Assembly: GCA_029261165.1 (NCBI GenBank)
Contig: JAJDBV010000049.1
Coordinates: 1 to 38,085 of the forward strand
Length of the DNA: 38,085 nt
Direction of reading: 5' to 3'
From: Nitrospirota bacterium
GTDB taxonomy: Bacteria > Nitrospirota > Nitrospiria > SBBL01 > JAADHI01
The translations under genes and the position numbers were made by a program. Every line of letters begins with the position of its first letter. The first letter of the stretch is position 1. Of the stretch, positions 3,330 to 18,461 are shown one piece after another. The notes below the pieces were generated by a model that worked only from the letters and a program-made list of their open reading frames with translations, ran no database searches and had not been told where the DNA came from.

Positions 3330-4258
3330 GTAGCTTCCCCCCTCATCTCCTCTATGAAGATGTCTTCAAGGGTTTCCCGTCTCGGTACAATTGAGACAAT
3401 CTTTCCTCCCTCCCGTTCTGTCCATTGAATGAGTTGCGGCAGAGCCTCCTCATCCTGGAGTGAAATCAAACTCTCTTCGCCTTTGGTGGTGATCGACTTT
3501 GACAGCGGGTCGAGGGCATGGACCCTTCCCTCGGGGAGTCCCCTCACACTGACCTCTACAGACTTCAGCTTCGGGTTCAGCATCTCTTCCAGGCGTCCGA
3601 CATTCCGAAGTTGTCCCTTAACAATAATCCCTACTTGATCGCAAATCATCTCTGCGTCTGACAGGACGTGTGTGCTGAAAAAGACGGTTTTCCCCTCTTC
3701 CTTCAGACGAAGAATGATGTCCCGGACATCCTTTCGACCCATCGGGTCGAGGCCCGACATCGGCTCGTCCAAGATAACCAGTTTCGGATCATTGATCAGG
3801 GCCTGGGCCAGCCCGATCCTCTGGAGCATTCCCTTCGAGTAGCGGCGGAGCTGAACCTGCTCTGCCCCTTTCAATTTGACCAGCTCAAAGAGCATCTCGA
3901 TCTTCACTTTCAATGCCCTTGATCCCATCCCAAAAAGCTGGCCATAAAAATAAAGAAACTCCGATCCGGTCAGATAATCATAGAAATAGGGACTCTCCGG
4001 GAGATAGCCGATCCCTCTCTTTATAGCAATCTCCCGGACCGACCTCCCAAAGAGGAAGGCCTCTCCCGAGGTCGGATGGAGGACCCCGATCAGCAGCTTC
4101 ATTGTCGTTGTTTTTCCCGCGCCGTTTGGACCCAGAAATCCGAAGGTCGCTCCACGTGCAACTTCCAGATTAAGATCGCTCAGGGCGGTTGACGCTTTCA
4201 GCCAAAAACCGGTGCGAAACCGCTTAGTCAGATGTCGTATCTGTATTGCCGGTGTCAT
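3326..4258 (-). CDS. ABC transporter ATP-binding protein (PilH-like)
   Basis: This 310-residue ABC ATPase has all catalytic motifs. Walker A GPNGAGKT is at residues 43-50 and the variant signature YSKGMLQRIGLAQAL at about 140-154. Walker B VILDEP is at 161-166 with its D-loop SGLDP, and the H-loop STH is at 195-197. The C-terminal 90 residues are an extra domain often found in ABC-2 exporters. The start overlaps the preceding TPR gene by 35 bases, an unusually long overlap, but the ATG at 4256-4258 begins the canonical first strand (IQIRHLTKRF). It energises the permease encoded immediately downstream. The substrate is unknown; context leaves pilus assembly or envelope export as options. Confidence 0.92.
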   Translation of the reverse strand: MTPAIQIRHLTKRFRTGFWLKASTALSDLNLEVARGATFGFLGPNGAGKTTTMKLLIGVLHPTSGEAFLFGRSVREIAIKRGIGYLPESPYFYDYLTGSEFLYFYGQLFGMGSRALKVKIEMLFELVKLKGAEQVQLRRYSKGMLQRIGLAQALINDPKLVILDEPMSGLDPMGRKDVRDIILRLKEEGKTVFFSTHVLSDAEMICDQVGIIVKGQLRNVGRLEEMLNPKLKSVEVSVRGLPEGRVHALDPLSKSITTKGEESLISLQDEEALPQLIQWTEREGGKIVSIVPRRETLEDIFIEEMRGEAT

Positions 4259-4913
4259 AGTTATCTATTCCTGAAAGAATACGGTTTATTTTCTTCTGGA
4301 TATGCTCCTTGACGAGGGCATCCGTCGCATTTCGATGGGCTTCGCGGTAAAACCGAAGTGCCGTCTCATTCTTATTGGTTTTGGCATAAAGTCCCCCGAC
4401 CAATGGCACCAGATAAGCGGGTGCTTCCGGAAGGGAAGATGCCTTTTCAATATACGGAGCAGCCTTCTCTGCATCTTTCTGATGATAGTAATAATTGAAT
4501 CCAATATAGAACGGAAATTGCCACTTCTCCGGGTAGGCTTCTATCCCCCTCTCCAATATCTGATTTGCCCGATCCACCTGTGAGGCCTCAAGAGATAAAA
4601 TGATCCCTCCGAAAAAATAAGGGAAATCAAAAAGGGGATCAAGGTCAATGATCAGGTTCAGGATGTGATGGAGCCAAGGATATTCCTTATCCGTCATAAA
4701 ATGGTCGCCGAAGTAACTGATTGTCTTCATCCAAAGCAAATCAGCCAGCATCTGATCATAACCCAGCGCCAAGGGTTTCAAATATTTCCCGGATGGGAGA
4801 TAAAGAAGCGTTTCCTGTTCGGGCGACTCAAACCGGGCCAGTTTTTTTTGGAGCTGTGCCTGGCCTAAAAACAAAATTATCATAACAATAACAATGAGAA
4901 GGGATCTTTTCAT
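4224..4913 (-). CDS. Membrane-anchored TPR protein, first gene of ABC operon
   Basis: This 229-residue protein has an N-terminal signal anchor (residues 3-17) followed by helical repeats. Two TPR-like units lie around residues 110-150 and 150-195 (motifs ANQILERGIEAYPEKW and ALRFYREAHRNATDA). The conserved-looking block LADLLWMKTISYFGDHFM is near residues 57-75. The protein is probably periplasmic and acts as a docking factor. It is the first gene of the operon TPR-ATPase-permease-membrane protein-small protein, reminiscent of pilG-pilH-pilI of Myxococcus, where PilG is also the non-ABC partner. No consensus promoter stands out in the 100 bases upstream. Confidence 0.75.
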   Translation of the reverse strand: MKRSLLIVIVMIILFLGQAQLQKKLARFESPEQETLLYLPSGKYLKPLALGYDQMLADLLWMKTISYFGDHFMTDKEYPWLHHILNLIIDLDPLFDFPYFFGGIILSLEASQVDRANQILERGIEAYPEKWQFPFYIGFNYYYHQKDAEKAAPYIEKASSLPEAPAYLVPLVGGLYAKTNKNETALRFYREAHRNATDALVKEHIQKKINRILSGIDNYDTGNTDTTSD

Positions 4914-4975
4914 GACTGATAATTATGATACCAGATTTTTTTCAATTTGGGGGCGATTTTTAAACATGTCCGGAC

Positions 4976-5009
4976 AAAATTGAAGCCCCCCGCCCTAGAA
5001 GGTCGGGGG
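4976..5009 (-). terminator. Intrinsic terminator at the end of the glycan locus
   Basis: On the minus strand, immediately after the TAA at 5010-5012, CCCCCG (5004-5009 complement) pairs with CGGGGG (4987-4992 complement). An inner CCT/AGG extends the stem. It is followed by CTTCAATTTTG, a moderate T-rich tail. It would end transcription of the glycosyltransferase genes and separate them from the ABC operon. Confidence 0.6.
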
Positions 5010-6080
5010 TTACGATCTCGATGCATATTCATGAAAGATCTCAGCCAGGCGTGATGAAACGACCTCACGGCTAAAATGTTTTACGGCAAGCTCTCGGCCC
5101 GCAAACCCCAAGCGATGGCCGAGGCTGGGATCTTTGTAAAGATTGTCCAGGGTCTCATACCAATCCCCTTCATTCCTGGCTGGAAACCCGACCTCCCCCA
5201 TGCCAAGAATCTCTTCATTCATCCCAACCGGAGAAACAACAACTGGCAGACCCGATGCCATATACTGCAACATCTTAAAACTGCACTTTCCGCGACACCA
5301 GTCATTGGAAAACAGCGGCATGATCCCAACATCCAACTCTCTCACAAATGGGGCCTCAGCGTTCGGCGACCAGGGAAAATACCGGACGCGGCCCACGGGT
5401 ATTGTTTTGAATCGGGGCGCTTGATCTGCCATGACCCACAATTCAGCCTCATGGTCGTTTAAAAATCTGCCTAAAGAAGACTCGATCCCATAAAGAAAAG
5501 GGAAGCCGCTGCTTTTTCCAGTCCAGCCGATGACAAACCCCCGATCGGCATTATTCTCTGATACACCCTTCGGAATAAACCGTTCGGTATCAATAGCTGT
5601 CGGAACAATGCGAACATTTCTCGAATATGCACTAAACCAGTCCGCGATATAAGCATTCCCGGCCAGGACCACCTCTGCGTCCTTCGCGATCCGCATCATC
5701 GCCGAACGGCCAAAGGGGGGATTGAGCCAGATGGCGTCATCAACATCGAATACATAAGGCCGTTTTAAGAACGGTTCCCATGTCAAACATCCTGGAAATA
5801 GTTCCCGTTCCAGCCATGTCAATTGGCCCTTCCAGCTACCTAAAACTCCCCGGATTCTTGTCGCCAATTCAACACCAGACCACAAAACGTATACCGGGGA
5901 GAACAAATATTTTGAGAAAGTTGATCGAGGTAACCCCGGGAGTTCGGCATACTTGCTAATAATCGGCATATATTCCCGCACATCGATACCGGCCATCTTC
6001 AAAGACTCGATATGCTGGCGTACGCGAAACCGGCTAGAGGGAACATCCTTCCCAGAGGTCAATGCGGCCACTTGAATCAT
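5010..6080 (-). CDS. Glycosyltransferase family 4 protein
   Basis: This 356-residue GT-B-fold glycosyltransferase probably transfers a sugar from a nucleotide donor to a lipid-linked glycan at the cytoplasmic membrane. Features include the N-terminal SSRFRVRQHIESL acceptor-side motif, IGWTGKSSGF at the start of the donor-binding domain (mid-protein), and a C-terminal LQYMASGLPVVVSPVG motif. The last corresponds to the E-x7-E region of GT4, with the first Glu replaced by Lys/Met context. The ATG at 6078-6080 is chosen over an upstream in-frame TTG at 6098. It is the last gene of the cluster, about 20 bases after the preceding GT2 gene and directly before a terminator. Donor and acceptor are unknown. 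Confidence 0.85.
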   Translation of the reverse strand: MIQVAALTSGKDVPSSRFRVRQHIESLKMAGIDVREYMPIISKYAELPGLPRSTFSKYLFSPVYVLWSGVELATRIRGVLGSWKGQLTWLERELFPGCLTWEPFLKRPYVFDVDDAIWLNPPFGRSAMMRIAKDAEVVLAGNAYIADWFSAYSRNVRIVPTAIDTERFIPKGVSENNADRGFVIGWTGKSSGFPFLYGIESSLGRFLNDHEAELWVMADQAPRFKTIPVGRVRYFPWSPNAEAPFVRELDVGIMPLFSNDWCRGKCSFKMLQYMASGLPVVVSPVGMNEEILGMGEVGFPARNEGDWYETLDNLYKDPSLGHRLGFAGRELAVKHFSREVVSSRLAEIFHEYASRS

Positions 6081-6102
6081 TCGTTTCTCTATGCCCAAAC
6101 CA

Positions 6103-7068
6103 TCATTTCTCCAACCGGATTTCCCTTGATTTTGTAATCCATTGAGGCAAGCTCATCCAGAGCAGGGCATATCCTCTTAGCGTCTCCTGTAGAGATATAC
6201 GACCCTTACCCATAGCACATCCTATCCTCAGAAAAGGTTCCAATAGCATTGTCCCCAACATCAAACCCGTTGCAGCCCACCAGCTTAAGTGTTTGTAGCC
6301 ATAAAGGATTCGGCTACGCAAAGAATAGTACAACCGTTTCGACTTAACTTGTTCGGATGAACCTCCCCCCCTATGGTAAACTTGAGCTTCACTAAGATAG
6401 TAAGAACTCCACCCCGCTTGCTTCGCGCGGCAGGAAAAATCAAGATCCTCAAAATACATAAAGAAATGCTCATCGAATCCGCCCAAAGCCTGATGCAAAG
6501 AACGCCGCACTAAAAAAAATGCCCCTAGGACATGATCTACCTGGCGACTCTCCATGTGATCCCACTCAGACATATGGTGGCTTAAAAAAAAATATGGTGC
6601 TAGAAGATCCAATCCGAATATGTAGGAAAAGAAACCCCTTGGTGTAGGAAACCGCGCGCAAGTTTGGCTCACCTTTCCTGTGTTATCAACAAGCTGTATT
6701 CCAACGATACCGATATTTTTACGAATCTTCTGCGCCATAAATTCCAATGGCCTGCTCAATGACCTATTGAAAAGACGGGTATCTGGATTGAGAAAAAGTA
6801 GGTATTCTGCCCGACTGCCCACTGCACCTTGATTGCAGGCTTTTGCAAAACCTAGGTTTTCTGTATTGTTGATCACGACCAGGGGCAATGCGATATCTGT
6901 CAGGTCATTTGCAGAACCATCTGATGAGGCATTGTCTACGACGACGACTCGGATGAGTTCAAAACCATCCCGGTTGGTGGCAAAAATTGACCCTAGACAA
7001 TCGCGTAATTGTTGTCCTGCATTCCAATTAACGATAACAATATCGAGAGAAATCATAGGGTCCAACAT
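6103..7068 (-). CDS. Glycosyltransferase family 2, rhamnosyltransferase-like
   Basis: This 321-residue GT-A-fold enzyme begins with the family's first strand DIVIVNWNAGQQL. It carries VVVDNASSDGS (nucleotide-binding region), the metal-site stretch LFLNPDTRLF near residue 95, and a WbbL-type block around residues 175-215 (GAFFLVRRSLHQALGGFDE, then FMYFEDLDF) followed by HRGGGSS. Enzymes with this signature often transfer dTDP-sugars such as rhamnose in O-antigen synthesis. The C-terminal 60 residues are hydrophobic or amphipathic and may attach it to the membrane. The ATG at 7066-7068 is preferred because GGAG lies just upstream; GTG one codon earlier is an alternative. Confidence 0.88.
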   Translation of the reverse strand: MLDPMISLDIVIVNWNAGQQLRDCLGSIFATNRDGFELIRVVVVDNASSDGSANDLTDIALPLVVINNTENLGFAKACNQGAVGSRAEYLLFLNPDTRLFNRSLSRPLEFMAQKIRKNIGIVGIQLVDNTGKVSQTCARFPTPRGFFSYIFGLDLLAPYFFLSHHMSEWDHMESRQVDHVLGAFFLVRRSLHQALGGFDEHFFMYFEDLDFSCRAKQAGWSSYYLSEAQVYHRGGGSSEQVKSKRLYYSLRSRILYGYKHLSWWAATGLMLGTMLLEPFLRIGCAMGKGRISLQETLRGYALLWMSLPQWITKSREIRLEK

Positions 7069-7141
7069 CACACTCCATATTAAGGGTCTTGCACTCCGTA
7101 TTCTAACTTTGGACCACGAACCTGAACAGTTTTGAATACTT

Positions 7142-8680
7142 TTATCGCATTCGATTACGGATCGTTCGTTCCAACCTGGAGATAGGACTCCTCGTATACA
7201 TATTGCGTATCGCTGCTCGCAGGCGATGGATGAGATTTAACCCAGCGGTTCTCCCGTGCTTATGAATGGAATGAAACGGTGCAACGAAATCTTTATCCAA
7301 CAAACGGGCGCGTCGAGGAAGGAGAAGACTATCTTCAATACGATGGGTTATTTGGTAAAGGAGGGATGGCCGTACATAGCCATGACCTACATGACCCTCG
7401 ATGAAAGACAATGGAATAAATCCCGCATCAATCGCTTCAAAAAGATCCTTCACCCATAGATAGCCCAAGGGGTTCTCTGTTGATACCCATGGCTGCGTTG
7501 CCATGTCTGTATAGTGAATCAATGCCGTTGCACCCTCATTAAATTGCTCAAGGGAATTCCAGGTCGGATCAATATCAAGGCGAATATCGTTTGCAACCGC
7601 CATGTCATACATAAGGGCTTCATACCGTAACTTTTCACAATCAAGGTCTGAAACAATTTCTTGAATATCCCACTTTAGCAGGTCACAATTCAAGAGCATG
7701 ACACTGAACTGTGGACGGCGACCACTCTCACCCGGCTCTCGTACAGCAAGACAATCCGCCCCATTGAAGGGTAAAACCCAGAGATCACGAATATCCTTAA
7801 AGACCTGCATGTCCGAATCCAGATAAACCGCCCTGCCTCTATAACCCGCCAACGCCGGAATAGTCAGCCTCTGGAATGAGAATGGTGTTCGAGGATGGTT
7901 TCGAATGTCTTTTGGGGTAGGAATCTCAATCCCCGCACGATGCATCGGGTAAATCTTGACACTCATACTCGCATGCTTACGAATAGAATACTCAAGCACT
8001 TTTACACTCAGCATCTGCGCTTCGGTCGTTGCCACATAAACCCGGATAGGCGTTTCTACATTTAGCGGGGCATAATCTATCCCTGTATTGAAAATAATTT
8101 TCGCTATCTTCTCAAACTGAACGTTAAAACTCTTTCTCTTATTGGAAAGTAATGTTTTATCTTTCAAATCATCAAACTCACCGCTGTAGGCAGCACCTCC
8201 ATCGATTCCTAAAGAGCGTACTTTACGAACCCCGGCCTGTGCGAGCAAATTCAGTGCTGCTTCTGCACTAAAGAACCTCACGTAAATGACAGGAGATCCT
8301 TCTCTTTTCTTGGGGGCCGTGCTTAGGTTGTACCATAACAATCGGCCCTCTTCTTCCAGCTGGTGGAGAAACGCATTTTCCCGAACCAGGTCAGCCAAAG
8401 TGCACAGACCAGGCTTATTTTTTACATGTGGATACCAAGGCATGACCAGTACCCGGGTATTCTCCACGAGGGAAATGCCACATGCGTCCACAACATCAAA
8501 ATCTATTATATGGGCAACAGTCACTTGTTGTTCGCGAACAGCATGATTGAGCGAAAAAAGCTTAAACATACTGATGTCAGAATGACTTCTTTCCGAAAAA
8601 CTGGGTCCTTTACCCAAGATCAACCATTGCTGGTTTTTTTCATAGCCCTGCTCCCCAAACCAGTTAAAATAGCTTTTCAC
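7142..8680 (-). CDS. Two-domain protein: Maf/DUF115-like domain plus GT8 glycosyltransferase
   Basis: This 512-residue protein appears to be a fusion. Residues 1-205 look like a Rossmann-type Maf/DUF115 (MptE-like) domain: WLILGKGPSFS near residue 20, LNHA near 45, DF near 60, and SAEAALNLL followed by GIDGG near 170. Residues from about 212 are a GT8-type glycosyltransferase: VYVATTEAQMLS, the metal-binding YLDSDMQVF near residue 295, and HYTDMATQPW near 410. GT8 enzymes use UDP- or CMP-activated sugars. The start codon is GTG, overlapping the upstream TGA (GTGA), so translation is coupled to the methyltransferase gene. The architecture could let one polypeptide add two different residues, or make and transfer one (inference). 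Confidence 0.75.
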   Translation of the reverse strand: MKSYFNWFGEQGYEKNQQWLILGKGPSFSERSHSDISMFKLFSLNHAVREQQVTVAHIIDFDVVDACGISLVENTRVLVMPWYPHVKNKPGLCTLADLVRENAFLHQLEEEGRLLWYNLSTAPKKREGSPVIYVRFFSAEAALNLLAQAGVRKVRSLGIDGGAAYSGEFDDLKDKTLLSNKRKSFNVQFEKIAKIIFNTGIDYAPLNVETPIRVYVATTEAQMLSVKVLEYSIRKHASMSVKIYPMHRAGIEIPTPKDIRNHPRTPFSFQRLTIPALAGYRGRAVYLDSDMQVFKDIRDLWVLPFNGADCLAVREPGESGRRPQFSVMLLNCDLLKWDIQEIVSDLDCEKLRYEALMYDMAVANDIRLDIDPTWNSLEQFNEGATALIHYTDMATQPWVSTENPLGYLWVKDLFEAIDAGFIPLSFIEGHVGHGYVRPSLLYQITHRIEDSLLLPRRARLLDKDFVAPFHSIHKHGRTAGLNLIHRLRAAIRNMYTRSPISRLERTIRNRMR

Positions 8681-9558
8681 TCCATTTGCCCTTCCAATGG
8701 GGGGACCCTTGGACCTTTTTTAGCAAAAAGCAATACTCGCGGTCCATTACGTTCATTCCTTGTTTCAATAATTTCAACCTTGCTAAAACCAGTACACTTT
8801 AATGTGTTAACGATGTCATCTAGCTTGAGCCACTTGGCATGATCATACATCCCTGAGAACGGATCAGAGTAACCGGATTCATTGAATTTCTTATATCGAT
8901 ACTCTATTCCATTGGCCTCATAGTTTTCTTTTGCTTCATCTTCGGGAGCGTAATGCGTATCCAACATAATACCAACGCGCGCATGTTCTCCTAAATCAAG
9001 CAAATGCTGAACGGGATCTTTTAAGTGATACAGAACACCAACATGATGAATTACATCTAAAGACGGTAAGCCGATTTTTATCGGCTTTTCTTCAATATTG
9101 CACTTAAAAACGGTTGGACTGAAACCAAAAAAGGCACATCGAATGATTGTCTTGACAACATTTTCGATTCTTGAATCGACAGCCGTTACTTTTTTTGCGA
9201 GTCCAGACAGCGCAATCGTATGAATGCCTTCGAAACAACCGACTTCCAAAACATGTTTATCCTTCAGGTCGAAATAATCGTGCATCAGCAAGACTCTTCT
9301 GTCTGGAATCTTTTGTGCTTCGATTCGCTTCCCGGCCCAGGCCGCACCCCCAAACCTTCGACCTCGGCCATCTACTGTGAAGCATTGCCAATTAAGTAAA
9401 TTGTTGAGTTCGACCAGATCATGATCACTTAAAGAGTCAACAAGCTCAGTTTCATTCTGATCCTCTTGGTAACCCGAAAAGGGGAATCGAGACCTGAATT
9501 TTTTCTGGTTGTAGTTCTTGATTATTTTTCTTATCGTGTGGAGGCCATTTCTTAACAT
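8677..9558 (-). CDS. Class I SAM-dependent methyltransferase, CmoB-like
   Basis: This 293-residue protein has a SAM-binding Rossmann core in its middle: VLEVGCFEGIHTIAL (motif I) and VTAVDSRIENV (acidic end of strand 2). Later elements are LDVIHHVGVLYHLKDP and a terminal strand. The pre-core segment W..FTVDGRGRRFGG resembles the family containing CmoB and related carboxymethyl/methyltransferases. Here it lies in a glycan locus, so methylation of a sugar or lipid carrier is more likely than tRNA modification (inference from context). The ATG at 9556-9558 is preferred to an in-frame TTG at 9570. It overlaps the GT8 fusion gene by 4 bases. The gene is more AT-rich than those to its left. Confidence 0.8.
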   Translation of the reverse strand: MLRNGLHTIRKIIKNYNQKKFRSRFPFSGYQEDQNETELVDSLSDHDLVELNNLLNWQCFTVDGRGRRFGGAAWAGKRIEAQKIPDRRVLLMHDYFDLKDKHVLEVGCFEGIHTIALSGLAKKVTAVDSRIENVVKTIIRCAFFGFSPTVFKCNIEEKPIKIGLPSLDVIHHVGVLYHLKDPVQHLLDLGEHARVGIMLDTHYAPEDEAKENYEANGIEYRYKKFNESGYSDPFSGMYDHAKWLKLDDIVNTLKCTGFSKVEIIETRNERNGPRVLLFAKKGPRVPPLEGQME

Positions 9559-9669
9559 GAGTAAACCCAATTAGCCCAATCATACTGGCCCTCCCCCACA
9601 AGGTCGCGGAAGATCCATCGCCTAGGCATCCTACATGCCCAAACTTTCCCGGGAAGAGAGCCAGTGTTA

Positions 9670-10500
9670 CTATTGATTTGTAAGGCGTATCAATCGTTTT
9701 GGAAATAATACTGCCGTAGTGGATCTCCCGGTCAATCCAACCTCAGTAATGGCTGAGGTCTCGCACGGATAAATAAGTGTGTGCGTTGTAAATATAGAGC
9801 TCCCCCTAAACATCATATAGTTAGCGACCCCCTTCTCGACCCCCTCGAAATCATCCAACGCAATGATCGCATCAGCTGTGGACAATTTATCCATTAGAAT
9901 AAGATCTTGATCTCCCACGCGCCCATCTATGTGGAAAAATGAAAAAGAGTTCTTCCCAGTCAAGGAACGTAACATATCCAAACTGGATGTTTTCTTGTAC
10001 TGAACGATTTTAATCTTACTGACTGCAGGCAGAGAGATCTCATTTGAAAAATCACAGGTGTGAATGCTCCCATTCGTTACTCCACCGTCCTCCATACCCA
10101 TCATGATAGCGGTTGTACTCTTACCGATAAATGTGCCGACTTCAAGAACATTTTCAGGTGCGAAAAACCGTGAGAGGCAATACAGGCACCAGGCGGAAGC
10201 AGATGATATTGAGCCAGTTTTATAATCAGCCCCACCTCGAAGGTCATCTAACTCTGAAAGCTGTTTAAAAAAAACAAATCGTTTATTATGAATCCAGAAT
10301 TCTGAATCGGAAAAGACTCTTTCCCAGAACATGCGACTCATCATCTCAACTGAAATATTTATACCCTGGGAAGGGGACATTCCATCACTTATTGCACTCG
10401 GAAGCGGATTCACTTGTTTTTTTCTCTTTATCTCCAACGAAATTGTTGCGAGGACCTTATTTAAAATAAGGAAAATTATTTTGATTAACTTACGAATCAT
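9670..10500 (-). CDS. Class I SAM-dependent methyltransferase (Methyltransf_24-like)
   Basis: The product has 276 residues. An N-terminal hydrophobic helix (residues about 5-22) is followed by a methyltransferase core. Motif I is VLEVGTFIGKSTTAIMMG. Next come IHTCDFSNE, FSFFHIDGRVGDQDL and IIALDDFEGVEKGVANYM, which resemble O-methyltransferase and cephalosporin-hydroxylase-like enzymes that bind a metal at the HIDG/DDF positions. It starts 3 bases after the stop of the WecF-like gene and so is in the same transcript. A 111-base gap follows before the next gene, with nothing recognisable in it. The likely substrate is a hydroxyl of the surface glycan, but this is context inference. Confidence 0.75.
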   Translation of the reverse strand: MIRKLIKIIFLILNKVLATISLEIKRKKQVNPLPSAISDGMSPSQGINISVEMMSRMFWERVFSDSEFWIHNKRFVFFKQLSELDDLRGGADYKTGSISSASAWCLYCLSRFFAPENVLEVGTFIGKSTTAIMMGMEDGGVTNGSIHTCDFSNEISLPAVSKIKIVQYKKTSSLDMLRSLTGKNSFSFFHIDGRVGDQDLILMDKLSTADAIIALDDFEGVEKGVANYMMFRGSSIFTTHTLIYPCETSAITEVGLTGRSTTAVLFPKRLIRLTNQ

Positions 10501-10503
10501 TTT

Positions 10504-11625
10504 CTAGCCCTTGTTAATACGAATTTTGATATCTTTGAGTTCAGAATATTGGAGTAACGTCGGAGGTGTTCCGGTCGGCTCACCTTTCTTACGATAAATT
10601 TGCTCAGGGCTCATACTCAAAAACTCCTTATGTGAAATGAGCTTCCCGGGGTAAAGATATTTGAAAATGTCGTAGTTGAAAGAAAATAAATTAAAACTCA
10701 CAACGCCACCCATTTTAACAAAATGAGTGAGAAGACCGACACCCTCATCCCTTAAGCAAGAAAAAAGGGCGATGTCGACGTTCTCCAATCTATCCTGCAT
10801 CTCTCTTGCCTTTAAAAATTTCCGCTCAAAAAAGACACTTTCGGCAAAATCGGCCTTCTCGTTTAATTTCTTCTCCAACGCATCCCGGTAAACCTCGTCG
10901 CCACCAGAATAAGATAAGAATCCTCGAACATGGATTTTCACAGGCCATCTTTTCTTATATTCTTTTATTATTTCAAGCGACTGTTCGTGCGCAACGGATG
11001 CAGTAGCGCTATGACAAATTAATACTGTTATTTCGTCTATATCAACCTTAATGTGCTCTTCGATAAATCTTATATCTTGATCACGAGAATAACCTTTAAA
11101 TATGGTCAATGGCGTTTTTAATGTGGTCTTAAATATCTTGCGATGAAAGGATCTTAACAGACGAAACTGTTTTGGGGTAAGAGCGAGGACAGCTTCAGAC
11201 CGGGAAACAACTTGTTGTCCAATCAACCGTCGAAATGTGCGAATAAATTTTGAATACCGACCTCTAATATTTGACCTATAATGTATTGGATTCAGTAAAG
11301 GGCTTTTTTTTAAGCAGTGCTGCTCGAATTCGATCTCATTCAAAAAGGTTGAGTAATAATCATCACCCCAATACAAGAGACCGTAATGGAAATTTCGCAC
11401 GAAGAACGACAAAGCCACGATCCAATAGTGTGGCACTCTGTGAAAGAGAACCAGACAATCAGTTCTTTTTTTGCATGCCGCATACAAGGAAAATAAGTCT
11501 TTCGTATTCTTCCAGAGGTTATTTTCTGCCCTATAAAAAAAACATTCATGGCCTAAGTCATTTGAAAAACCTTGAATAATAGGACCAAATATGCTTGGGT
11601 CTGGGATGACGTGTACTATTTTCAT
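10504..11625 (-). CDS. WecF-like TDP-Fuc4NAc transferase (4-alpha-L-fucosyltransferase family)
   Basis: The product has 373 residues. WecF adds 4-acetamido-4,6-dideoxygalactose (Fuc4NAc) from its dTDP donor to lipid III of enterobacterial common antigen. Visible similarities to E. coli WecF are HVIPDPSIFG at the start and YWGDDYY (WecF has WGADLY). The nucleotide-binding block VLICHSATASVAHEQSLEII corresponds to VGNSGDRSNEH in WecF. DIALFSCLRDEGVGLLTHF corresponds to GYFIFARQQGIGTLCLL. The WecE-type aminotransferase gene lies directly upstream, which supports the donor assignment. A 266-base gap precedes the ATG. It holds a TATAAT at 11796-11801 on the minus strand but no good -35, and nothing else recognisable. 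The gene is AT-rich compared with wecE. Confidence 0.75.
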   Translation of the reverse strand: MKIVHVIPDPSIFGPIIQGFSNDLGHECFFYRAENNLWKNTKDLFSLYAACKKRTDCLVLFHRVPHYWIVALSFFVRNFHYGLLYWGDDYYSTFLNEIEFEQHCLKKSPLLNPIHYRSNIRGRYSKFIRTFRRLIGQQVVSRSEAVLALTPKQFRLLRSFHRKIFKTTLKTPLTIFKGYSRDQDIRFIEEHIKVDIDEITVLICHSATASVAHEQSLEIIKEYKKRWPVKIHVRGFLSYSGGDEVYRDALEKKLNEKADFAESVFFERKFLKAREMQDRLENVDIALFSCLRDEGVGLLTHFVKMGGVVSFNLFSFNYDIFKYLYPGKLISHKEFLSMSPEQIYRKKGEPTGTPPTLLQYSELKDIKIRINKG

Positions 11626-11891
11626 TTTTACTTATCTTTTGAGAAAGCACGATCAGTGATGGTTTCTTCCCAAAGGACAACCGCTCACTGTGAGGTCGTG
11701 CCCCTTAATATCGTCTTAATTAGAATGATTGAATTTTCATTTAAACTTTTCAGTGATATAGAGTGGTACGGTCGTCATTGCGCTCAGTATTTTGGATTAT
11801 ACAGAAGTTAAAGCGCAGCTTCGCAGGAATATTGAACCTGTGAGAAGAACTTATGACCAATCGTTAATTTAAAACTTCCGAGGTCGTCGTA

Positions 11892-13019
11892 CTATTTTGG
11901 ATAAATCGCCAGCGCCAAACGACACAGCACCTCTTTTGTATCCACACCGACCCACAGTGGGAGCCTCAACAAACGGGCAGCGAGTTCATCTGTCTGGGTT
12001 AGTAAACCAGAGGTTCGACCATACCGCTTACCTCCTGGGGAACTATGTAACGGCACGTAGTGAAAAACCGTATTAACACCTTGTTGTCGCATCAACTCGA
12101 TGATCGAAGTTCGGTGCGCAAGCGAGTGGGACAACAAATAATACATGTGGGCATTGTGCTGGCAAAGGCCAGGAATCACGGGGCGTCGTACAACCTCAGC
12201 CGCTTCGGATGCGGCAAGGCCCTCATGGTAGGCATCCCAAATTGCGAGCCGCTTCTTAGTAATCTCCACTGCTTCCTGCATCTGAGCCCACAGAAATGCT
12301 GCGATTATTTCACCCGGCAAGAACGAAGATCCAATATCACACCAAGTGTATTGATCCAACTTCCCACGGGAAAACTGACTACGGTTTGTTCCTTTCTCGC
12401 GAATGATTTCAGCACGCTCAACAAAGCGCTCGTCATTGATTAATAGCGCACCTCCCTCGCCCGAAATAATGTTTTTGGTCTCATGGAAGCTGAGACATCC
12501 CATGTGACCAATTGAACCCAAAGGACGGTCTTTGTATGTGGACATGATGCCATGCGCAGCATCCTCGATAACCAACAGGTTGTACTTTTCGGCGATGGCC
12601 ATGATGGCGTCCATATCGCAGGAAACACCCGCATAATGCACAGGGACAATGGCGCGCGTTCGTGGCGTGATCGCGGCTTCAATCAGCGTTGCATCGATGT
12701 TTAAGGTATCTGGGCAAATGTCGATGAAAACCGGGATACCCCCCCTCAGTACAAATGCATTGGCAGTCGAGACGAAGGTATAAGAGGGCATAATTATTTC
12801 GTCACCAGGTTGAATATTTGCAAGAATGGCCGACATCTCCAGAGCCGCAGTGCAGGAATGGGTCAACAATGCCTTCTTAGTGCCGGTTCGCGCCTCAATC
12901 CATGAATGACAATAGTTGGTGAAGGGGCCATCCCCTGCAAGGATGAAATTGAAATGTGCCTTGGCAATGTAAAATAATTCTTTCCCTGTCATATAGGGCT
13001 TATTGAAGGGGATATTCAT
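11892..13019 (-). CDS. wecE: dTDP-4-amino-4,6-dideoxygalactose transaminase (WecE/RffA)
   Basis: This 375-residue PLP aminotransferase converts dTDP-4-keto-6-deoxyglucose to dTDP-4-amino-4,6-dideoxygalactose (dTDP-Fuc4N). It follows E. coli WecE almost end to end. Shared stretches include IPFNKPYMTG, LLTHSCTAALEM, QPGDEIIMPSYTFVSTANAF and IVPVHYAGVSCDMD. The PLP-lysine region is SFHETKNIISGEGG, and IIREKGTNRSQF and FHYVPLHSSPGGKRYG follow. Length matches the family. The ATG at 13017-13019 is followed by the canonical N-terminus. The genes for the dTDP-glucose precursor (rmlA/rmlB types) are not in the window. Together with the WecF-like gene it indicates a Fuc4N-containing glycan. Confidence 0.93.
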   Translation of the reverse strand: MNIPFNKPYMTGKELFYIAKAHFNFILAGDGPFTNYCHSWIEARTGTKKALLTHSCTAALEMSAILANIQPGDEIIMPSYTFVSTANAFVLRGGIPVFIDICPDTLNIDATLIEAAITPRTRAIVPVHYAGVSCDMDAIMAIAEKYNLLVIEDAAHGIMSTYKDRPLGSIGHMGCLSFHETKNIISGEGGALLINDERFVERAEIIREKGTNRSQFSRGKLDQYTWCDIGSSFLPGEIIAAFLWAQMQEAVEITKKRLAIWDAYHEGLAASEAAEVVRRPVIPGLCQHNAHMYYLLSHSLAHRTSIIELMRQQGVNTVFHYVPLHSSPGGKRYGRTSGLLTQTDELAARLLRLPLWVGVDTKEVLCRLALAIYPK

Positions 13020-13345
13020 GATAATTTTCTCGTTACAAACAATCTCGGCCAGCCGAGAGGAACACTCATCCCATTACGAATCATGGCGATCTCCACATTC
13101 AAACAACTTCTTAATGAATATCGTGACCCCAGACGAATTTCCAAGTAAAGCTATGGCATCAATATTCTTTTATGGAGTTTATTTTCACATCATACGGGAG
13201 ATAAACACTGCTTACGACAAAAGAGCCAAACATGATGCTGAGGTAATGCGATCACGTGAAACGCATCAACAATTCAATAACCTGCTCACAGTACCGATCA
13301 ACCCGCATTGGATGACTACCCTACGGGCTGGCGTGAAAAAAGAAA
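13020..13345. other. 326-base intergenic stretch without a recognisable gene
   Basis: This lies between the propeller gene and wecE, both on the minus strand. One plus-strand frame (13003-13356) is open throughout, but its translation resembles nothing known, lacks a ribosome binding site and overlaps both neighbours, so it is not called a gene. No clear promoter, terminator or repeat was found. The abrupt change from AT-rich sequence to the right to GC-richer wecE makes this a likely recombination junction (inference). Confidence 0.4.
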
Positions 13346-14248
13346 TTACTCTTTGATTAGCGTAGCAAGCCCAAAACCTGCCTTGCCGTAATCATTCCCG
13401 TTGTATAACATGAATCTATGCATTTTATGATCGAAGACAAATGGATACTCAATCATTTCGGAGTCCCAACCACTTTCACTGACATCTATCCCTGAGTTCT
13501 CTTTTCTATCCCATTTAATTCCATCCAGGCTATTGGCATACCCTATGCGGTACTTTTTCCCTTCACCTGATCGATAAGAGTACCACATATGATAACCGTC
13601 TTTATCTTTTACTACCGTGGGCCGGGAAAAAGCCTGTGCAACCCCTAATTCATACGGCACAGCAAGCCCCTGTTTTTGCCAATGCTCTCCGTCCCGCGAT
13701 GTTGCATATTTGATCACGTGCAACATCTCTCTATTCTCCTCTTCCCAGGTTATCGTAGAGCCATACCACATCTTATAATACCCTTTATCTTTCATCACCC
13801 AAGGATAGGACAGGCTGATGGGATCTTCTTCATCACTTGAAATAAATACTCCTTCAGGATCCAGGACCATTTTTTCAAGACTATCCAGTTTAAGACGTCC
13901 AATATCACCACGCCAATGGGCATGATCTCGAACTTGCCAACCCATGAACAGGACATAGTCATTTCCGTTTACCGAGTATATATTTCCAATACTCACACCG
14001 TGAGAATAAAAACTATCACTCTCCCCATATTTGAATATGGTTTTATTACACACATCTATCACTTTTAGTTTTTGAATATCTACATCAACAAAACCAATGG
14101 AAGACTTATCATCCTTATCTCTTCCACTAAAAAAAACCCTGAAAATATCTTCACTGATATGTCGTGCTATAGGATTGGAAGCATGTGTATATAGATTATT
14201 ATTAATGTATTCGAAATCAAAAATCTTTCCCAGCTTTTTCCACTTCAT
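13346..14248 (-). CDS. Five-bladed beta-propeller protein, glycosidase-like (GH43/32/130-type fold)
   Basis: This 300-residue protein has repeated blades of the form FRVFFSGRDKDDKSSIGFVD, YPWVMKDKGYYKMWYGS, YATSRDGEHWQ, RPTVVKDKDGYHMWYSYR and FVFDHKMHRFMLYNGND. These W-Y/F-S/Y-G motifs are typical of five-bladed propellers of the GH32/43/68/130 fold. There is no signal peptide, so it is probably cytoplasmic and may trim or bind an intermediate sugar rather than a polymer. Catalytic acids cannot be assigned with confidence. It starts 9 bases after the preceding methyltransferase gene stops and is strongly AT-rich like its upstream neighbours, which suggests shared acquisition. Confidence 0.65.
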   Translation of the reverse strand: MKWKKLGKIFDFEYINNNLYTHASNPIARHISEDIFRVFFSGRDKDDKSSIGFVDVDIQKLKVIDVCNKTIFKYGESDSFYSHGVSIGNIYSVNGNDYVLFMGWQVRDHAHWRGDIGRLKLDSLEKMVLDPEGVFISSDEEDPISLSYPWVMKDKGYYKMWYGSTITWEEENREMLHVIKYATSRDGEHWQKQGLAVPYELGVAQAFSRPTVVKDKDGYHMWYSYRSGEGKKYRIGYANSLDGIKWDRKENSGIDVSESGWDSEMIEYPFVFDHKMHRFMLYNGNDYGKAGFGLATLIKE

Positions 14249-14257
14249 GCATTAACC

Positions 14258-15385
14258 TTACTCAAGCCCTATCCCAGTAAATATATTCGAAAATTTAATA
14301 TTATTAATATCGTTAAATATACGTTTCACTTTTTTTTCATGTTTCGGATTGACTAACAAAACCATATTAATCTCTTCATTCATATTTTTTATAAGCTCTC
14401 TTGCTCTAGAAGAAGAAACAACCTTATCTTCTTTACTATAATCATCGATATAGTATTTAATTTTACAATCCAGTTGTGTATATGGAACAATCGTTTTTGC
14501 AATTTCTCCATAACCAAAGGCAATGAGCTCATTATGAGATTTCCTGGCAATAACATTATTTATATTTTCAAAAATCTTGTTTATATTTAAAATATTCCTA
14601 TTCTTTTCAAAAGAAAAAGTTTCCTCTGATATCATATTGTTCTTTCTGCAAATATACATGCCAACATTTGAATAAGCATCTCTACCAAGTTCATAGTTTA
14701 AAATATCAAAACCATTGGATCTGATAAGTTTTATAAAATTATTATGGGAAAAATGATACAGATGATCAATAAACAATATATCGTAGTTAAACCTGTCTTG
14801 AACTGGAAGAGCGATAACCATTATTCCTTCATCATTTAATATATTAAATGATTTTTTTAATAATGCTTCCGGTTCTTCTAAATGTTCTATGACACAATAC
14901 GATACCACCAAATCATATCTTTCAGTATCGTCAATGTTTTCAAACATAATATTTCTTACACTTGCAACATTATTTGCTATCTCCGATGCTTCTTTACTCG
15001 CCTCTACCCCAAACTTATTTTTCACATCCATCTTTTCTAACAAATAGCCTTGTCCGCAGCCTATTTCAAGCATATTCGAAAAGTGTTTAAGCTCAAGCGC
15101 GATCAGCAGCGAATCTATCCATTGATGAACGAACTCGCTTCTTGTTGTTTCAAGATCATCCTGATCAACAACAACCGTGTCAATATTTCGACTTGGAGAA
15201 TATTCATATTTATAAAACTCATCCCAATTGAAATCACATTTTGTTCCTACCGTGCCACAAGAAGTGCACTCTTTTTTTATTAACGGGTGATCTACTTTTG
15301 TCCCATCACTCATATATCCCTCTTTTAAAGAAAGAACCACCCTAAAGGAGGCCTTTTGGCAGACAGGACAATCCTTATTCAACAT
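14258..15385 (-). CDS. Class I SAM methyltransferase with N-terminal zinc-ribbon-like and C-terminal domains
   Basis: The product has 375 residues. Residues 1-46 carry a CPVC...CTSC four-cysteine cluster (Cys pairs near residues 6/9 and 40/43), as in sugar C-methyltransferases of the TylC3/NovU type. The SAM core follows: LEIGCGQGYLLEKM near residue 108, then VVSYCVIEHLEEPEALLK. A C-terminal Rossmann-like domain starts near residue 275 (ELIAFGYGEIAKTIVPY). This three-part layout is the hallmark of C-methyltransferases acting on dTDP-keto-sugars, so C-methylation of a nucleotide sugar is plausible. The start overlaps the dioxygenase gene by 11 bases. The gene is among the most AT-rich in the window, rich in ATT, AAT and AAA codons. 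Confidence 0.8.
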   Translation of the reverse strand: MLNKDCPVCQKASFRVVLSLKEGYMSDGTKVDHPLIKKECTSCGTVGTKCDFNWDEFYKYEYSPSRNIDTVVVDQDDLETTRSEFVHQWIDSLLIALELKHFSNMLEIGCGQGYLLEKMDVKNKFGVEASKEASEIANNVASVRNIMFENIDDTERYDLVVSYCVIEHLEEPEALLKKSFNILNDEGIMVIALPVQDRFNYDILFIDHLYHFSHNNFIKLIRSNGFDILNYELGRDAYSNVGMYICRKNNMISEETFSFEKNRNILNINKIFENINNVIARKSHNELIAFGYGEIAKTIVPYTQLDCKIKYYIDDYSKEDKVVSSSRARELIKNMNEEINMVLLVNPKHEKKVKRIFNDINNIKFSNIFTGIGLE

Positions 15386-16187
15386 CTTTATTTACTCTGT
15401 TTTCTCTCCAAGCCACATCATCAATTGCAGTCTGTGAGGTATAGCCAAGAAGTTGTGATAGAAACTTATCCTCAGAAAATTTTCCTTTCAACGCTCTTGG
15501 AAAATCATAAAATTGTTTCATTATTGGGGTTGAGTACATATGGTTTACTGCCCTTCTTGTTTTTTGAGAAGAGTTATAACCTGCCTTGTGAATCAGCATT
15601 GAATCAAAAACGATTGCTGAGCCAGCTTTTGCATTTAAGAGAAGAGAATGTTTTTTGATATACCTATCTGATGGGAGCACATCCATTTTATGTGTGTAAG
15701 GTAAAACTGCCGTTCCTCCGGTTTCCCTGGAAAAGTCATCAATACAGAAAAGAACATTTATTGATAAAGGGTTTGAAATCACATAATTCTGATAAGGTAA
15801 ATCCCTATGCCACTTATTTTGATGGTGTTTTTCATTTGGAGTATTAATGATTGCATTTTGCAGATTTAATATAAAATAATCACCTAAGATCTTTTTCACA
15901 ATTGATAAAATTTTCTCATTTATTACGAGGTTAATAAAAAAATCATCGTACTTTATAGGCATTCGGCATAAGTCTTTTTCTTGAAGAGAAGTAAGTTTAT
16001 CTAATCCCAGCTTATCCTCTTGTTGTTTATATATAGAATGGATTTTCTCTCTGTAAATATCAAGTTCATCCTCATTTAATAAATTTTCGACAATAGAAAA
16101 CCCATGGGTTCTAATCTCTTCAACATGTAATTCAATATCAGAGTTACATGGAGTTTGATCAAGGCGGCCATAAAAATCATCTTTCAT
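15375..16187 (-). CDS. Phytanoyl-CoA dioxygenase (PhyH)-family oxygenase
   Basis: This 270-residue Fe(II)/2-oxoglutarate-dependent oxygenase has the double-stranded beta-helix core. The N-terminal signature THGFSIVENLLNEDEL is characteristic of PhyH. The metal motif HRD (H-x-D, in NKWHRDLPYQ) is near residue 118, and the distal His in DSMLIHKAG is near 190. An Arg in KTRRAVNHMY, about 10 residues later, is suited to binding 2-oxoglutarate. Within a glycan locus it may hydroxylate a sugar, an amino-acid decoration or a lipid carrier. The ribosome binding site AAGGG lies 7 bases before the ATG. It belongs to the AT-rich islet. Confidence 0.8.
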   Translation of the reverse strand: MKDDFYGRLDQTPCNSDIELHVEEIRTHGFSIVENLLNEDELDIYREKIHSIYKQQEDKLGLDKLTSLQEKDLCRMPIKYDDFFINLVINEKILSIVKKILGDYFILNLQNAIINTPNEKHHQNKWHRDLPYQNYVISNPLSINVLFCIDDFSRETGGTAVLPYTHKMDVLPSDRYIKKHSLLLNAKAGSAIVFDSMLIHKAGYNSSQKTRRAVNHMYSTPIMKQFYDFPRALKGKFSEDKFLSQLLGYTSQTAIDDVAWRENRVNKDVE

Positions 16188-16201
16188 AAAAAACCCTTTT
16201 G

Positions 16202-16867
16202 TTATATCCTTCTTAGCCTATAACTCGGAACCTTTGAAACTTCTGTCACCCTTGCGATATAAACTTTATTATCCTCCGTGTTTCCAAGTATCAATGCCCC
16301 CGCGCCAATAACATTCGACTTCCCTACGGATATGTGATCCCTAAGCGTTGCGTTGACCCCAATGAACGTCGAGTTCCCGACAGTACAACCGCCAGAAACC
16401 ACAACGTGAGATGCAATAAAGCAATGATCTTGAATGACTGAGTGATGACCAATATGGTTTCCACTCCATAATGTAACGTTATTTCCAATGATGACAAAAG
16501 GCTGAATCGTATTGTCTTCGAAGATGAAGCAGTTATCACCGATCTTGCCTTCATTGAGAATTGTTGCATGGGAACTGATATAGCTGGCAAGCTGGTATCC
16601 CCGGGATTTTGCGGCCTTATATTTCTCTTTTCGCACTTCGTTAAGTTTCGCATAGCTCAGAGCTACGAAAAGTTCATGGGTCTTTGGTGTATAGCAACTT
16701 GTGACCTCTTCAAAAGGAACGACAGGTAACCCGCAGAATTCCTTTCCAGTGATGTAGGCAGCGTCCACCGTGAACGCCACGACCTGATAATCGGAATCCG
16801 TAGAGAAGTAGTAGTGAGCCAGTTGGGCAATGTCGCCCGTACCAAATATGAGCAGTGGTTTTTTCAT
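16202..16867 (-). CDS. NeuD-like sugar O/N-acyltransferase (left-handed beta-helix)
   Basis: The product has 221 residues. The N-terminal 85 residues form a Rossmann-like PglD/NeuD domain beginning LLIFGTGDIAQLAHYYF. The remainder consists of hexapeptide repeats (for example IGDNCFIFEDNTIQP, IGNNVTLWSGNHIGHHSVI and VGNSTFIGVNATLRDHI), building a trimeric left-handed beta-helix. The catalytic His is likely in GNHIGHHS. PglD-type enzymes acetylate amino groups of UDP- or dTDP-4-amino sugars. With WecE in the same locus, acetylation or other acylation of dTDP-Fuc4N is an attractive role, replacing the GNAT-type WecD that is absent here (inference). It overlaps the preceding methyltransferase gene by 4 bases. 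Confidence 0.85.
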   Translation of the reverse strand: MKKPLLIFGTGDIAQLAHYYFSTDSDYQVVAFTVDAAYITGKEFCGLPVVPFEEVTSCYTPKTHELFVALSYAKLNEVRKEKYKAAKSRGYQLASYISSHATILNEGKIGDNCFIFEDNTIQPFVIIGNNVTLWSGNHIGHHSVIQDHCFIASHVVVSGGCTVGNSTFIGVNATLRDHISVGKSNVIGAGALILGNTEDNKVYIARVTEVSKVPSYRLRRI

Positions 16868-17499
16868 GGATTTTTTCTCACTAAAATCGTGAATTCATAA
16901 AGACCATAGTCATGCAATAGCGCCACATGAGGCGAATAACGGCGCTTACACAGGTCGAACCAGTGGCAGGGATCAGCGTAATAAAGATAATCCCGCATCT
17001 TGCCTGTATCCGAGTATGAAGTCAGGCAATTGAAAGCAAAAGCACGCTGGCTGCTATGGTATAGCACATTGATGGTGGCCTCAAGATAATCACTCCACTC
17101 TGCATCGTTGCGCCCAAGGCGCACATTGAAGATGCCACTGGCGATGCCGTAGTCCGCCACTCCCGCTGGCTCGGAAGCTACGGCGAAGCGTGTATTGTGG
17201 TTGCTGCTGTACCGGGCGTTAGCGGCATGAATCATATCGTCCGAGACATCGCAACCGTTGTAGGCAAAATCTTGATAGTGTGCGTCCAGGTAATCAAACA
17301 GGGCCCCATAGCCGCAGCCAAGATCATTTATCGAAAAACCTTGCGGTTGTTCGATAACCTTGGACAGTTGCTTAAAGCGTAGTAACTGGCTATCTTCCCC
17401 GTTCCAATCAACACCGCACGGGGTTTCACCATGCGCTGCTAATTTCGCTGAATAGTAGTCGGCAACTTCGCTCAGAATGCTATTGATCCTATTTCCCAT
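16864..17499 (-). CDS. Class I SAM-dependent methyltransferase
   Basis: The product has 211 residues. The SAM core begins at about residue 57 with INDLGCGYGALFDYL (motif I), followed by YNGCDVSDDMIHAAN (acidic residue of strand 2) and later strands including FAFNCLTSYSD. The N-terminus (SEVADYYSAKLAAHG) is a short cap. The ribosome binding site GAGG lies 5 bases before the ATG. It sits between the WbqC-family and NeuD-like genes, so it is probably one of the tailoring enzymes for the same sugar. The substrate cannot be deduced from the sequence. Confidence 0.82.
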   Translation of the reverse strand: MGNRINSILSEVADYYSAKLAAHGETPCGVDWNGEDSQLLRFKQLSKVIEQPQGFSINDLGCGYGALFDYLDAHYQDFAYNGCDVSDDMIHAANARYSSNHNTRFAVASEPAGVADYGIASGIFNVRLGRNDAEWSDYLEATINVLYHSSQRAFAFNCLTSYSDTGKMRDYLYYADPCHWFDLCKRRYSPHVALLHDYGLYEFTILVRKNP

Positions 17500-17561
17500 A
17501 AATTACCTCACCATGTCGAACAGACAAAACCTGTTTTCCAGGAAAAATAAGCAATATCGTT

Positions 17562-18257
17562 TCATCGACAAACATACTTCATGTAATGCCCTGCATCTTT
17601 ACCGCAGTTGAACAACAAATCGAGAATAGTCACGCCATGAGTAAAATTGCCCCCGATCTGAGGGTACTCTGGGTAACCCGTATGGTCGAACCAGGTAAGC
17701 TTGATACCGCGCTCCAAAAAGACCTGTTCCTCGACATAATCCTTGGCGGCTGGGCCTGATATATACTCCTCTCCCCCTGCCTGCACGCAAAGATCTGCCA
17801 GCCGTTCTGTCTTTCCGTCCACCAAGGTGTAGTCCCAGGAATTGCTGATCTTGGTGTTGATGCCAAGGTAGAGGCAAACCGTCTCGATGAACGTTCTATT
17901 CAACGGGCTCAAACGGGAATAGGCGTTCTGAAGATACAGTGGTTCAAAGAGGGCAGCCACTTCCTCGAAATGAGGAGCACGGCGATAGTTCTGAGCAATT
18001 ATTTGCCAATGCCTGTCCTCCCAGTCAACTCCGTCAATTTCGGTATCTCGAATGGTCTGATGATACTTACCCTTGACCTTTACGGGTACCGTAAGCCATT
18101 GAACACCATGCGGCGTCTTGATCTGGTTGCGGTTGCGCCAGTCGCGCCGAGTGTATTGCATGTCGTCGTAGAGAATGAATTCATCCACAGAAGCAATCAT
18201 GTCGAAGTAGCCTTTCCACGGAATGTAGTTGGACTGAACCACGGCAATCTTCTTCAT
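17562..18257 (-). CDS. WbqC-family protein
   Basis: This 231-residue protein of the WbqC family is found in O-antigen clusters, where its exact reaction is not settled; acyl or aminoacyl transfer to an aminosugar is one proposal. Family hallmarks are the start [20 protein letters not shown] and the motifs [22 protein letters not shown] and [10 protein letters not shown]. The ATG at 18255-18257 is preferred over an in-frame TTG two codons earlier. The 62-base gap to the downstream methyltransferase gene has no feature. Frequent pairing of WbqC with WecE-type aminotransferases supports a role in modifying a 4-amino-4,6-dideoxy sugar. Confidence 0.9.
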
Positions 18258-18461
18258 ATACAAGAACCAATAAACACTTTATAGGGTGAATAGACGGTAA
18301 CAGTATTCGCTCAGCCGGTCCGCCATTTCTCCAGGCGCGACCATCATACATGCAAGTGTTTTCTCGTTGAACCCCAACCAGCCTTGTCACTTGAGTCCGA
18401 ATGCCGTAGCTTCTGACCTCTCAGGGGATAAAATTGCCATTATTAAATTTCAAACAAAGTC

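Follow-up and report, generated by a model that had tools for sequence, protein, structure and literature searches.

Three tightly packed, A/T-rich genes in the DNA of a Nitrospirota bacterium raise the questions of whether they form a natural unit, where they came from and what they contribute to the synthesis of a surface sugar. They lie on the minus strand of a 38,085-nucleotide stretch (contig JAJDBV010000049.1 of assembly GCA_029261165.1), which we call the window, and together they make up what we call the islet (13346-16187). The first gene encodes an Fe(II)/2-oxoglutarate oxygenase of the PhyH family (15375-16187, 270 aa; PF05721), the second a three-domain C-methyltransferase-like protein, labelled CMT below (14258-15385, 375 aa; PF13489 and an AlphaFold2 (AF2) model), and the third a beta-propeller with a GH130-like fold (13346-14248, 300 aa), which is a member of a conserved core. 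An earlier note on this sequence had proposed that the three proteins, recently acquired, could together hydroxylate, C-methylate and bind or trim a nucleotide sugar. The conserved cassette to which the propeller belongs, its recurrence, the discordant ancestry of the islet, the folds and the conservation of the active sites were obtained by computation, and we consider it about an even chance (a probability of roughly 0.5) that the islet is a tailoring module swapped into this cassette, the product being a modified dTDP-4-amino-4,6-dideoxyhexose of the Fuc4N type.

The gene layout and the A/T-rich islet described in the earlier note were both reproduced. The PhyH and CMT genes overlap by 11 bases (15375-15385), a gap of 9 bases (14249-14257) separates the CMT gene from the propeller gene, and the domain names hold (E 2.5e-25 for PF05721, E 1.4e-14 for PF13489, and the propeller fold by model). 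The G+C content (GC) of the entire islet was 0.344; among 705 windows of islet length stepped along the contig, 7 were this low or lower, and the five lowest began at 13401-13801, i.e., on the islet. GC and GC at third codon positions were 0.325 and 0.262 for PhyH, 0.314 and 0.279 for CMT, and 0.396 and 0.379 for the propeller, vs. 0.447 and 0.473 for the neighbouring NeuD-like gene, 0.494 and 0.533 for a small methyltransferase gene, 0.494 and 0.603 for WbqC, and 0.495 and 0.532 for WecE. Synonymous codon use was compared with that of the other window genes by a divergence test (a codon test on mean likelihood was uninformative); the divergence was extreme, at z 10.7 for PhyH and 10.3 for CMT, but slight for the propeller (z 2.5), which ranked under the gene at 3326-4258 (z 5.3) and has a GC close to that of the glycosyltransferase-like gene at 10504-11625 (0.389). 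The composition of the islet therefore differs from the average, as its overall GC and the codon scores above 10 for PhyH and CMT show, and the A/T-richness is strong for PhyH and CMT and moderate for the propeller.

We scanned 84,980 genomes for relatives of the propeller; of the 391 found, the best 80 loci are compared here. Cassette family profiles were built from the same 80 loci and the window, and the cassette counts are lower bounds because some of the loci end at contig borders. The propeller was found to belong to a cassette with the order WbqC - (family 2 glycosyltransferase, GT2) - small methyltransferase - NeuD-like - propeller - WecE. A NeuD-like gene lay no more than 6 kb from the propeller in 79 of the 80 loci (directly upstream of it in 75); over the same distance we identified WbqC in 70, GT2 in 65, WecE in 64, the small methyltransferase in 62, GtrA or EamA in 51 and PhyH in 35. 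The loci come from 12 named phyla, with 48 in Pseudomonadota, 14 in Bacteroidota and 3 in Nitrospirota, two each in four further phyla and one each in five; 2 loci were unassigned. Among 295 genomes of the window's phylum, the propeller (E 1e-20) was present in 11 and WecE in 13, and the two occurred together in four (G000, G186, G212 and G238), compared to about 0.5 expected from the multiplied rates; in each of these genomes they are neighbouring cassette genes. Searched against plasmids by tblastn, the propeller matched 31 records. In six (L022-L027) of the eight whose neighbourhoods were inspected, a NeuD-like acetyltransferase directly precedes the propeller, mostly with WbqC, GT2, the small methyltransferase and WecE/RffA nearby; the seventh (L028) has no such acetyltransferase directly before the propeller, and the eighth (L029) has a partial form. 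No propeller relative was found in phage records, and no paper describing the cassette was found in the open-licence literature. The cassette is thus conserved over many phyla. It probably directs the synthesis of an amino sugar that is decorated and displayed on the cell surface; such a cassette, common to 12 named phyla and with the propeller and WbqC as near-constant members yet to be placed, would close a gap in the biochemistry of nucleotide sugars.

Several variants of the cassette were observed in passing. Tandem propeller genes are present in L029 (7998-9934), where WbqC and a DegT aminotransferase gene are next to them and a GNAT acetyltransferase replaces the NeuD-like protein, as well as in L119, L121 and one genome of the window's phylum (G113). 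A protein of about 680 aa with a DCC1-like domain (PF04134; e.g., L106, 1837-3888) is encoded within 7 kb in 12 of the 80 cassettes. A genome of the host's family (G139) carries a divergent version (L163, 3647-12076) with a NeuD-like gene, a propeller, a weak PhyH match (64 bits), a different aminotransferase and an RmlB-like gene.

In contrast to the near-constant members of the cassette, PhyH is an optional insert, present somewhere in 37 of the 80 loci, and CMT occurs in 10. In all 10 CMT loci the PhyH gene adjoins the CMT gene and shares its strand, with either gene first (Fisher p 2e-4; four of these loci, L101, L102, L104 and L106, the last from Rhizobium johnstonii 3841, are closely related Rhizobiaceae, so that this value overstates independence); in L077 the called open reading frames (ORFs) of the two overlap. 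Two other methyltransferase families accompany PhyH, namely MTc18 in 10 and MTc27 in 5 of the 37 loci. CMT, MTc18 and MTc27 never occur together; exactly one of them is found in 25 of the 37 PhyH loci (e.g., L098 and L061), and none in the 43 loci that lack PhyH. Relatives of PhyH (E 1e-15) were found on 4 of 72,556 plasmid records, all 4 of which also carry the propeller, and no CMT relative was found on plasmids at E 1e-15. Two of 309 genomes from the L106 phylum contained the PhyH family: the seed, and G781, where a WecE-like aminotransferase, a propeller and pieces of a NeuD-like gene are close by. We conclude that this PhyH family is all but confined to the cassette, that PhyH and CMT constitute a sub-module, and that the propeller is part of the core. 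CMT is not an ordinary housekeeping methyltransferase: outside the seed genomes, its profile detected no member in either phylum searched (296 genomes of the L035 phylum at E 1e-40, 309 of the L106 phylum at E 1e-50).

The proposal of a three-gene unit was thus borne out in part. The three genes do recur, as the exact order NeuD-PhyH-CMT-propeller was found in 2 of the 80 loci, L031 from a marine biofilm bacterium and L035 from Flavobacterium sp. HTF, and the PhyH-CMT pair in 10; they are not a self-contained natural unit, given that 43 of the 80 propeller loci lack PhyH, 70 lack CMT, and the propeller is a core gene. The combination of PhyH with a methyltransferase as a plug-in offers a rule, open to testing, by which unusual amino sugars with branches or hydroxyl groups could be predicted from sequence. 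In an excerpt of a 2023 review (PMC9912281), branched 3-C-methyl monosaccharides are termed quite uncommon.

The identification of the second islet gene as C-methyltransferase-like rests on an AF2 model with a mean predicted local distance difference test score (pLDDT) of 84.3, in which residues 60-74 are poor. The model matches MtmC, KijD1 and TcaB9 along its whole length (Z 23.0-25.2 over 335-347 residues, root-mean-square deviation (rmsd) 5.3-6.1), whereas the next structure matches cover a single domain (Z 19.7 or less over 161-201 residues); such structural neighbours indicate resemblance only, and a family absent from the neighbour lists is not thereby excluded. By this full-length match, CMT has the three-domain architecture of the NDP-hexose C3-methyltransferases of TylCIII/TcaB9 type, in which an N-terminal zinc domain is followed by a SAM domain and a Rossmann-like C-terminal domain. 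We take Tyr76, His181, Glu224 and His225 of TcaB9 to be catalytic. Their numbers come from the titles of mutant structures in the PDB. In the family profile, H181, E224 and H225 align with H168, D207 and H208 of CMT, and the KijD1 tyrosine aligns with Y62; these four CMT residues are invariant in 9 of 9 sequences, so that the catalytic residues appear to be retained with one conservative change, at D207. C6, C9, C40 and C43, candidate zinc ligands of the N-terminal domain, are invariant in 9 of 9 as well, and CMT thus shares with the three enzymes the predicted fold, the Tyr/His/acid/His set and the paired N-terminal cysteines. For PhyH, the PF05721 match (90.5 bits, cut-off 22) points to an oxygenase, and its predicted site is intact. 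The motif of such oxygenases is an HxD...H iron triad with a 2-oxoglutarate-binding arginine, and the corresponding residues H127, D129, H200 and R211 were kept in 23 of 23 sequences. PhyH scored 17.3 bits against TIGR04324, a 2-oxoglutarate oxygenase family of a 'sporadic carbohydrate cluster', where the cut-off is 150.

From the gene content we infer a substrate, an order of steps and a product. RmlA and RmlB are encoded elsewhere in the genome, above their cut-offs, and together with WecE, likewise above cut-off, they lead us to expect dTDP-4-keto-6-deoxyglucose, the predicted product of RmlA and RmlB, and its 4-amino derivative. CMT would take a proton off C3, beside the 4-keto group, and C-methylate this carbon. 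A TcaB9-like enzyme requires a keto group beside the methylated carbon, and CMT is therefore placed before WecE, which would then transaminate C4. The NeuD-like enzyme would N-acylate the new amine, PhyH may introduce a hydroxyl group or oxidise a carbon, either in the sugar or in its acyl group, a further methyl group may come from the small methyltransferase, and a putative WecF-like glycosyltransferase would transfer the residue to a surface polysaccharide. The propeller and WbqC, the two near-constant partners in the cassette, are given no step in this scheme.

The best-surviving alternative is that PhyH and the methyltransferases tailor the N-acyl chain, supplied by the NeuD-like protein or WbqC, and not the sugar ring. 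N-acyl variation on 4-amino sugars is common, both of these candidate sources are near-constant (79 and 70 of the 80 loci), and PhyH is accompanied by one of three methyltransferase families, as if a single variable group were being decorated. The full-length fold and the active-site residues of the CMT model are, however, those of ring-acting dTDP-keto-sugar enzymes, and we regard acyl-chain tailoring as possible but unlikely. We are similarly tentative about a broader reading, in which the cassette encodes an undescribed nucleotide-sugar pathway common to many phyla, the GH130-fold propeller being a near-obligate biosynthetic catalyst and PhyH with an interchangeable methyltransferase a plug-in. 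The propeller and the NeuD-like protein would then work on the dTDP-4-amino-4,6-dideoxyhexose, and the oxygenase would create an oxo or hydroxyl site to be methylated by its partner, the CMT version being an oxidation followed by C-methylation.

Any role given to the propeller is inferred. Its AF2 model is all-beta (mean pLDDT 94.3), and the nearest fold is that of a GH130 beta-1,2-mannan phosphorylase (Z 29.0, rmsd 2.3 over 269 residues, 18% identity), closely followed by other propeller glycosidases and phosphorylases; we take these nearest folds to be five-bladed. This resemblance, together with the invariance of D55, D142 and E174 in 42 of 42 closer relatives, would be expected if the propeller worked as a glycosidase or phosphorylase in trimming or recycling the sugar, as the word 'trim' in the earlier note implied. 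Against this, the propeller falls under the PF04041 cut-off (25.3 bits vs. 26, residues 206-290 only) and under the NCBIfam GH130 cut-offs, no acidic residue is invariant among 7 rows that include divergent relatives, nor among 49, and, in contrast to the GH130 phosphorylases, its gene is linked to biosynthetic genes. We therefore consider trimming improbable. A search for GH130 proteins with which to map the catalytic residues found them in 2 of 148 genomes.

We further compared the ancestry of the islet to that of the surrounding cassette genes. The trees were quick searches. For the approximately unbiased (AU) tests, the tests of a two-group split and the identity comparisons, seven long-branch loci and the WecE row of L035 had been removed and the remainder thinned, which left 43 of 81 rows for the propeller, and 42, 37, 30 and 38 rows for the other gene sets. 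The window propeller is sister to that of L031 (support 94), among Campylobacterota and Bacteroidota, and its grouping with three Nitrospirota propellers was rejected (p-AU 0.0056). Conversely, grouping with L030-L032 was rejected for WbqC (p-AU 8.4e-5) and for WecE (p-AU 0.002), as was a grouping of WecE with Nitrospirota (p 2.2e-6). The best matches switch at the islet. Those of the propeller and PhyH are in L030/L031 (66%), and identities to L031 are 67% for PhyH, 48% for CMT and 66% for the propeller, whereas other lineages supply the best matches (71-79%) of the NeuD-like protein, the small methyltransferase, WbqC and WecE, which are 51-59% identical to L031. With 75% (NeuD-like protein) and 72% (small methyltransferase) identity to other lineages, vs. 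51-64% to L030-L032, these two fit the non-islet side. The GC pattern of L031 is similar to that of the islet (PhyH 0.33, CMT 0.34, propeller 0.39). We looked for a recombination break inside the propeller gene, and none was demonstrated. Because composition, trees, identities and AU rejections differ between the islet and WbqC/WecE, the sequence evidence supports the view that a three-gene block was swapped in from a low-GC lineage with an ancestry unlike that of WbqC and WecE, and the window is an example of a cassette remodelled by swapping an internal block. Of the acquisition claimed in the earlier note, the foreign ancestry stands, and 'recent' is not supported, given that even the nearest relatives located share only 48-67% identity. 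A competing view, in which the cassette was inherited vertically and the low GC comes from a relaxed composition among surface-glycan genes, with no block acquired, is very unlikely. In its favour, other glycan genes in the window are AT-rich too (10504-11625, GC 0.389; 9670-10500, 0.412; 8677-9570, 0.416), the codon use of the propeller is nearly normal, and the 5' part of its gene is AT-richer, as it is in L031; the codon divergence of PhyH and CMT, the change in best-match identities at the islet and the AU rejections argue against it.

Several observations weigh against a swapped tailoring module acting in the order given above. PhyH occurs without CMT in 27 of the 70 CMT-lacking loci, and the two steps therefore need not be sequential. 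The trees of the NeuD-like protein and the small methyltransferase leave their ancestry unresolved, one quick NeuD tree joins the window to L030-L032 (support 48), and tests of a broad two-group split were not significant and non-discriminating. CMT is 14-16% identical to TcaB9, KijD1 and MtmC and has D207 in place of TcaB9 E224 and F205 in place of Y222. The Pfam domains Methyltransf_13 and Methyltransf_14 mark the NDP-hexose C3-methyltransferase family; neither is among the 11 Pfam families found at E up to 0.1, and we therefore call it C-methyltransferase-like and do not file it as a member. The RmlA and RmlB genes are on another contig than the cassette, the WecF likeness of the gene at 10504-11625 is weak, and the enzyme activities of all cassette proteins are predictions from sequence and models.

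The remaining cassette genes of the window are also on the minus strand. Upstream of the islet are the genes for a NeuD/PglD-like sugar N-acyltransferase (16202-16867; TIGR03570, 177.2 bits, cut-off 160.8), the small class I S-adenosylmethionine-dependent methyltransferase (16864-17499; PF13649) and the WbqC-family protein (17562-18263; PF08889, E 7.7e-82). For WbqC, no PDB entry was matched by sequence at E up to 1, and, judging by titles and the opening lines of abstracts, none of the papers found addresses its function. On the other side is the gene for a WecE-type dTDP-4-keto-6-deoxyglucose transaminase (11892-13019), which exceeds the cut-offs of both TIGR02379 (598 bits vs. 434.85) and NF008687 (587.1 vs. 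375). Downstream of it, the putative WecF-like (Fuc4N) glycosyltransferase (10504-11625, minus strand) matches NF002756 at E 9.6e-9 with 34.7 bits, far under the cut-off of 457, and its WecF likeness is a lead only. A plus-strand open frame of 117 aa lies between WecE and the propeller (13003-13356); it has no Pfam match and was matched in 1 of 41 genomes searched, its own. A mobile element at the ends of the islet was considered and rejected, as there is no long flanking repeat in 12800-17600 and this orphan frame has no Pfam match. Elsewhere in the window, four minus-strand tRNA genes (Thr-GGT, Gly-TCC, Tyr-GTA and Thr-TGT) lie at 228-737, and the ORF called over them at 277-699 is an artefact.

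Comparison with known systems places the cassette between several pathways. With the enterobacterial common antigen Fuc4NAc pathway (RmlA, RmlB, WecE, WecD and WecF) it shares WecE, the RmlAB genes in the genome and the weakly WecF-like gene; the NeuD-like protein presumably occupies the place of WecD, and to our knowledge WbqC, the propeller, the small methyltransferase, PhyH and CMT have no counterpart there. The N-acyl kansosamine of the Mycobacterium kansasii lipooligosaccharide is, we assume, an N-acyl 4-amino-4,6-dideoxy-3-C-methyl sugar and hence the kind of product proposed here; the likeness lies in the kind of proposed product only, and no link to this cassette was found. Kansosamine is named as a unique sugar in an excerpt of PMC4403928. 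For the virenose (3-C-methyl-6-deoxyhexose) of Coxiella lipopolysaccharide, an in silico proposal (PMC3539893, in excerpt) has a TylCIII-like enzyme C3-methylate an NDP-4-keto-6-deoxyhexose, so that a precedent, itself a proposal, exists for methylating C3 of such a keto sugar on the way to lipopolysaccharide; as given in that excerpt, the pathway ends in ketoreduction, whereas the window cassette would end in transamination and acylation.

MtmC, KijD1 and TcaB9 act in dTDP-sugar pathways that we take to be those of antibiotics. Their PDB titles describe dTDP-sugar pathways, whereas CMT sits in a surface-glycan cassette. The likeness to the Arn/GtrAB polyprenyl-phosphate systems is in the ArnC/PgfS-like GT2 (65 of the 80 loci) and GtrA or EamA (51 of the 80) that most cassettes elsewhere carry, which suggests a polyprenyl-phosphate route in those cassettes; the differences are that WecE-type amination replaces ArnB, that the cassette has extra tailoring genes, and that GT2, GtrA and EamA were not detected in the window cassette. 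In L031, the closest islet relative, the cassette lies among genes for pseudaminic acid (3144-14364; PseB, PseC, PseF and PseG, all above cut-offs), which suggests its use in protein glycosylation there. Taken together, the WecF-like gene in the window, GT2 with GtrA/EamA elsewhere and the pseudaminic acid genes at L031 indicate that the product of the cassette probably serves more than one kind of surface glycan.

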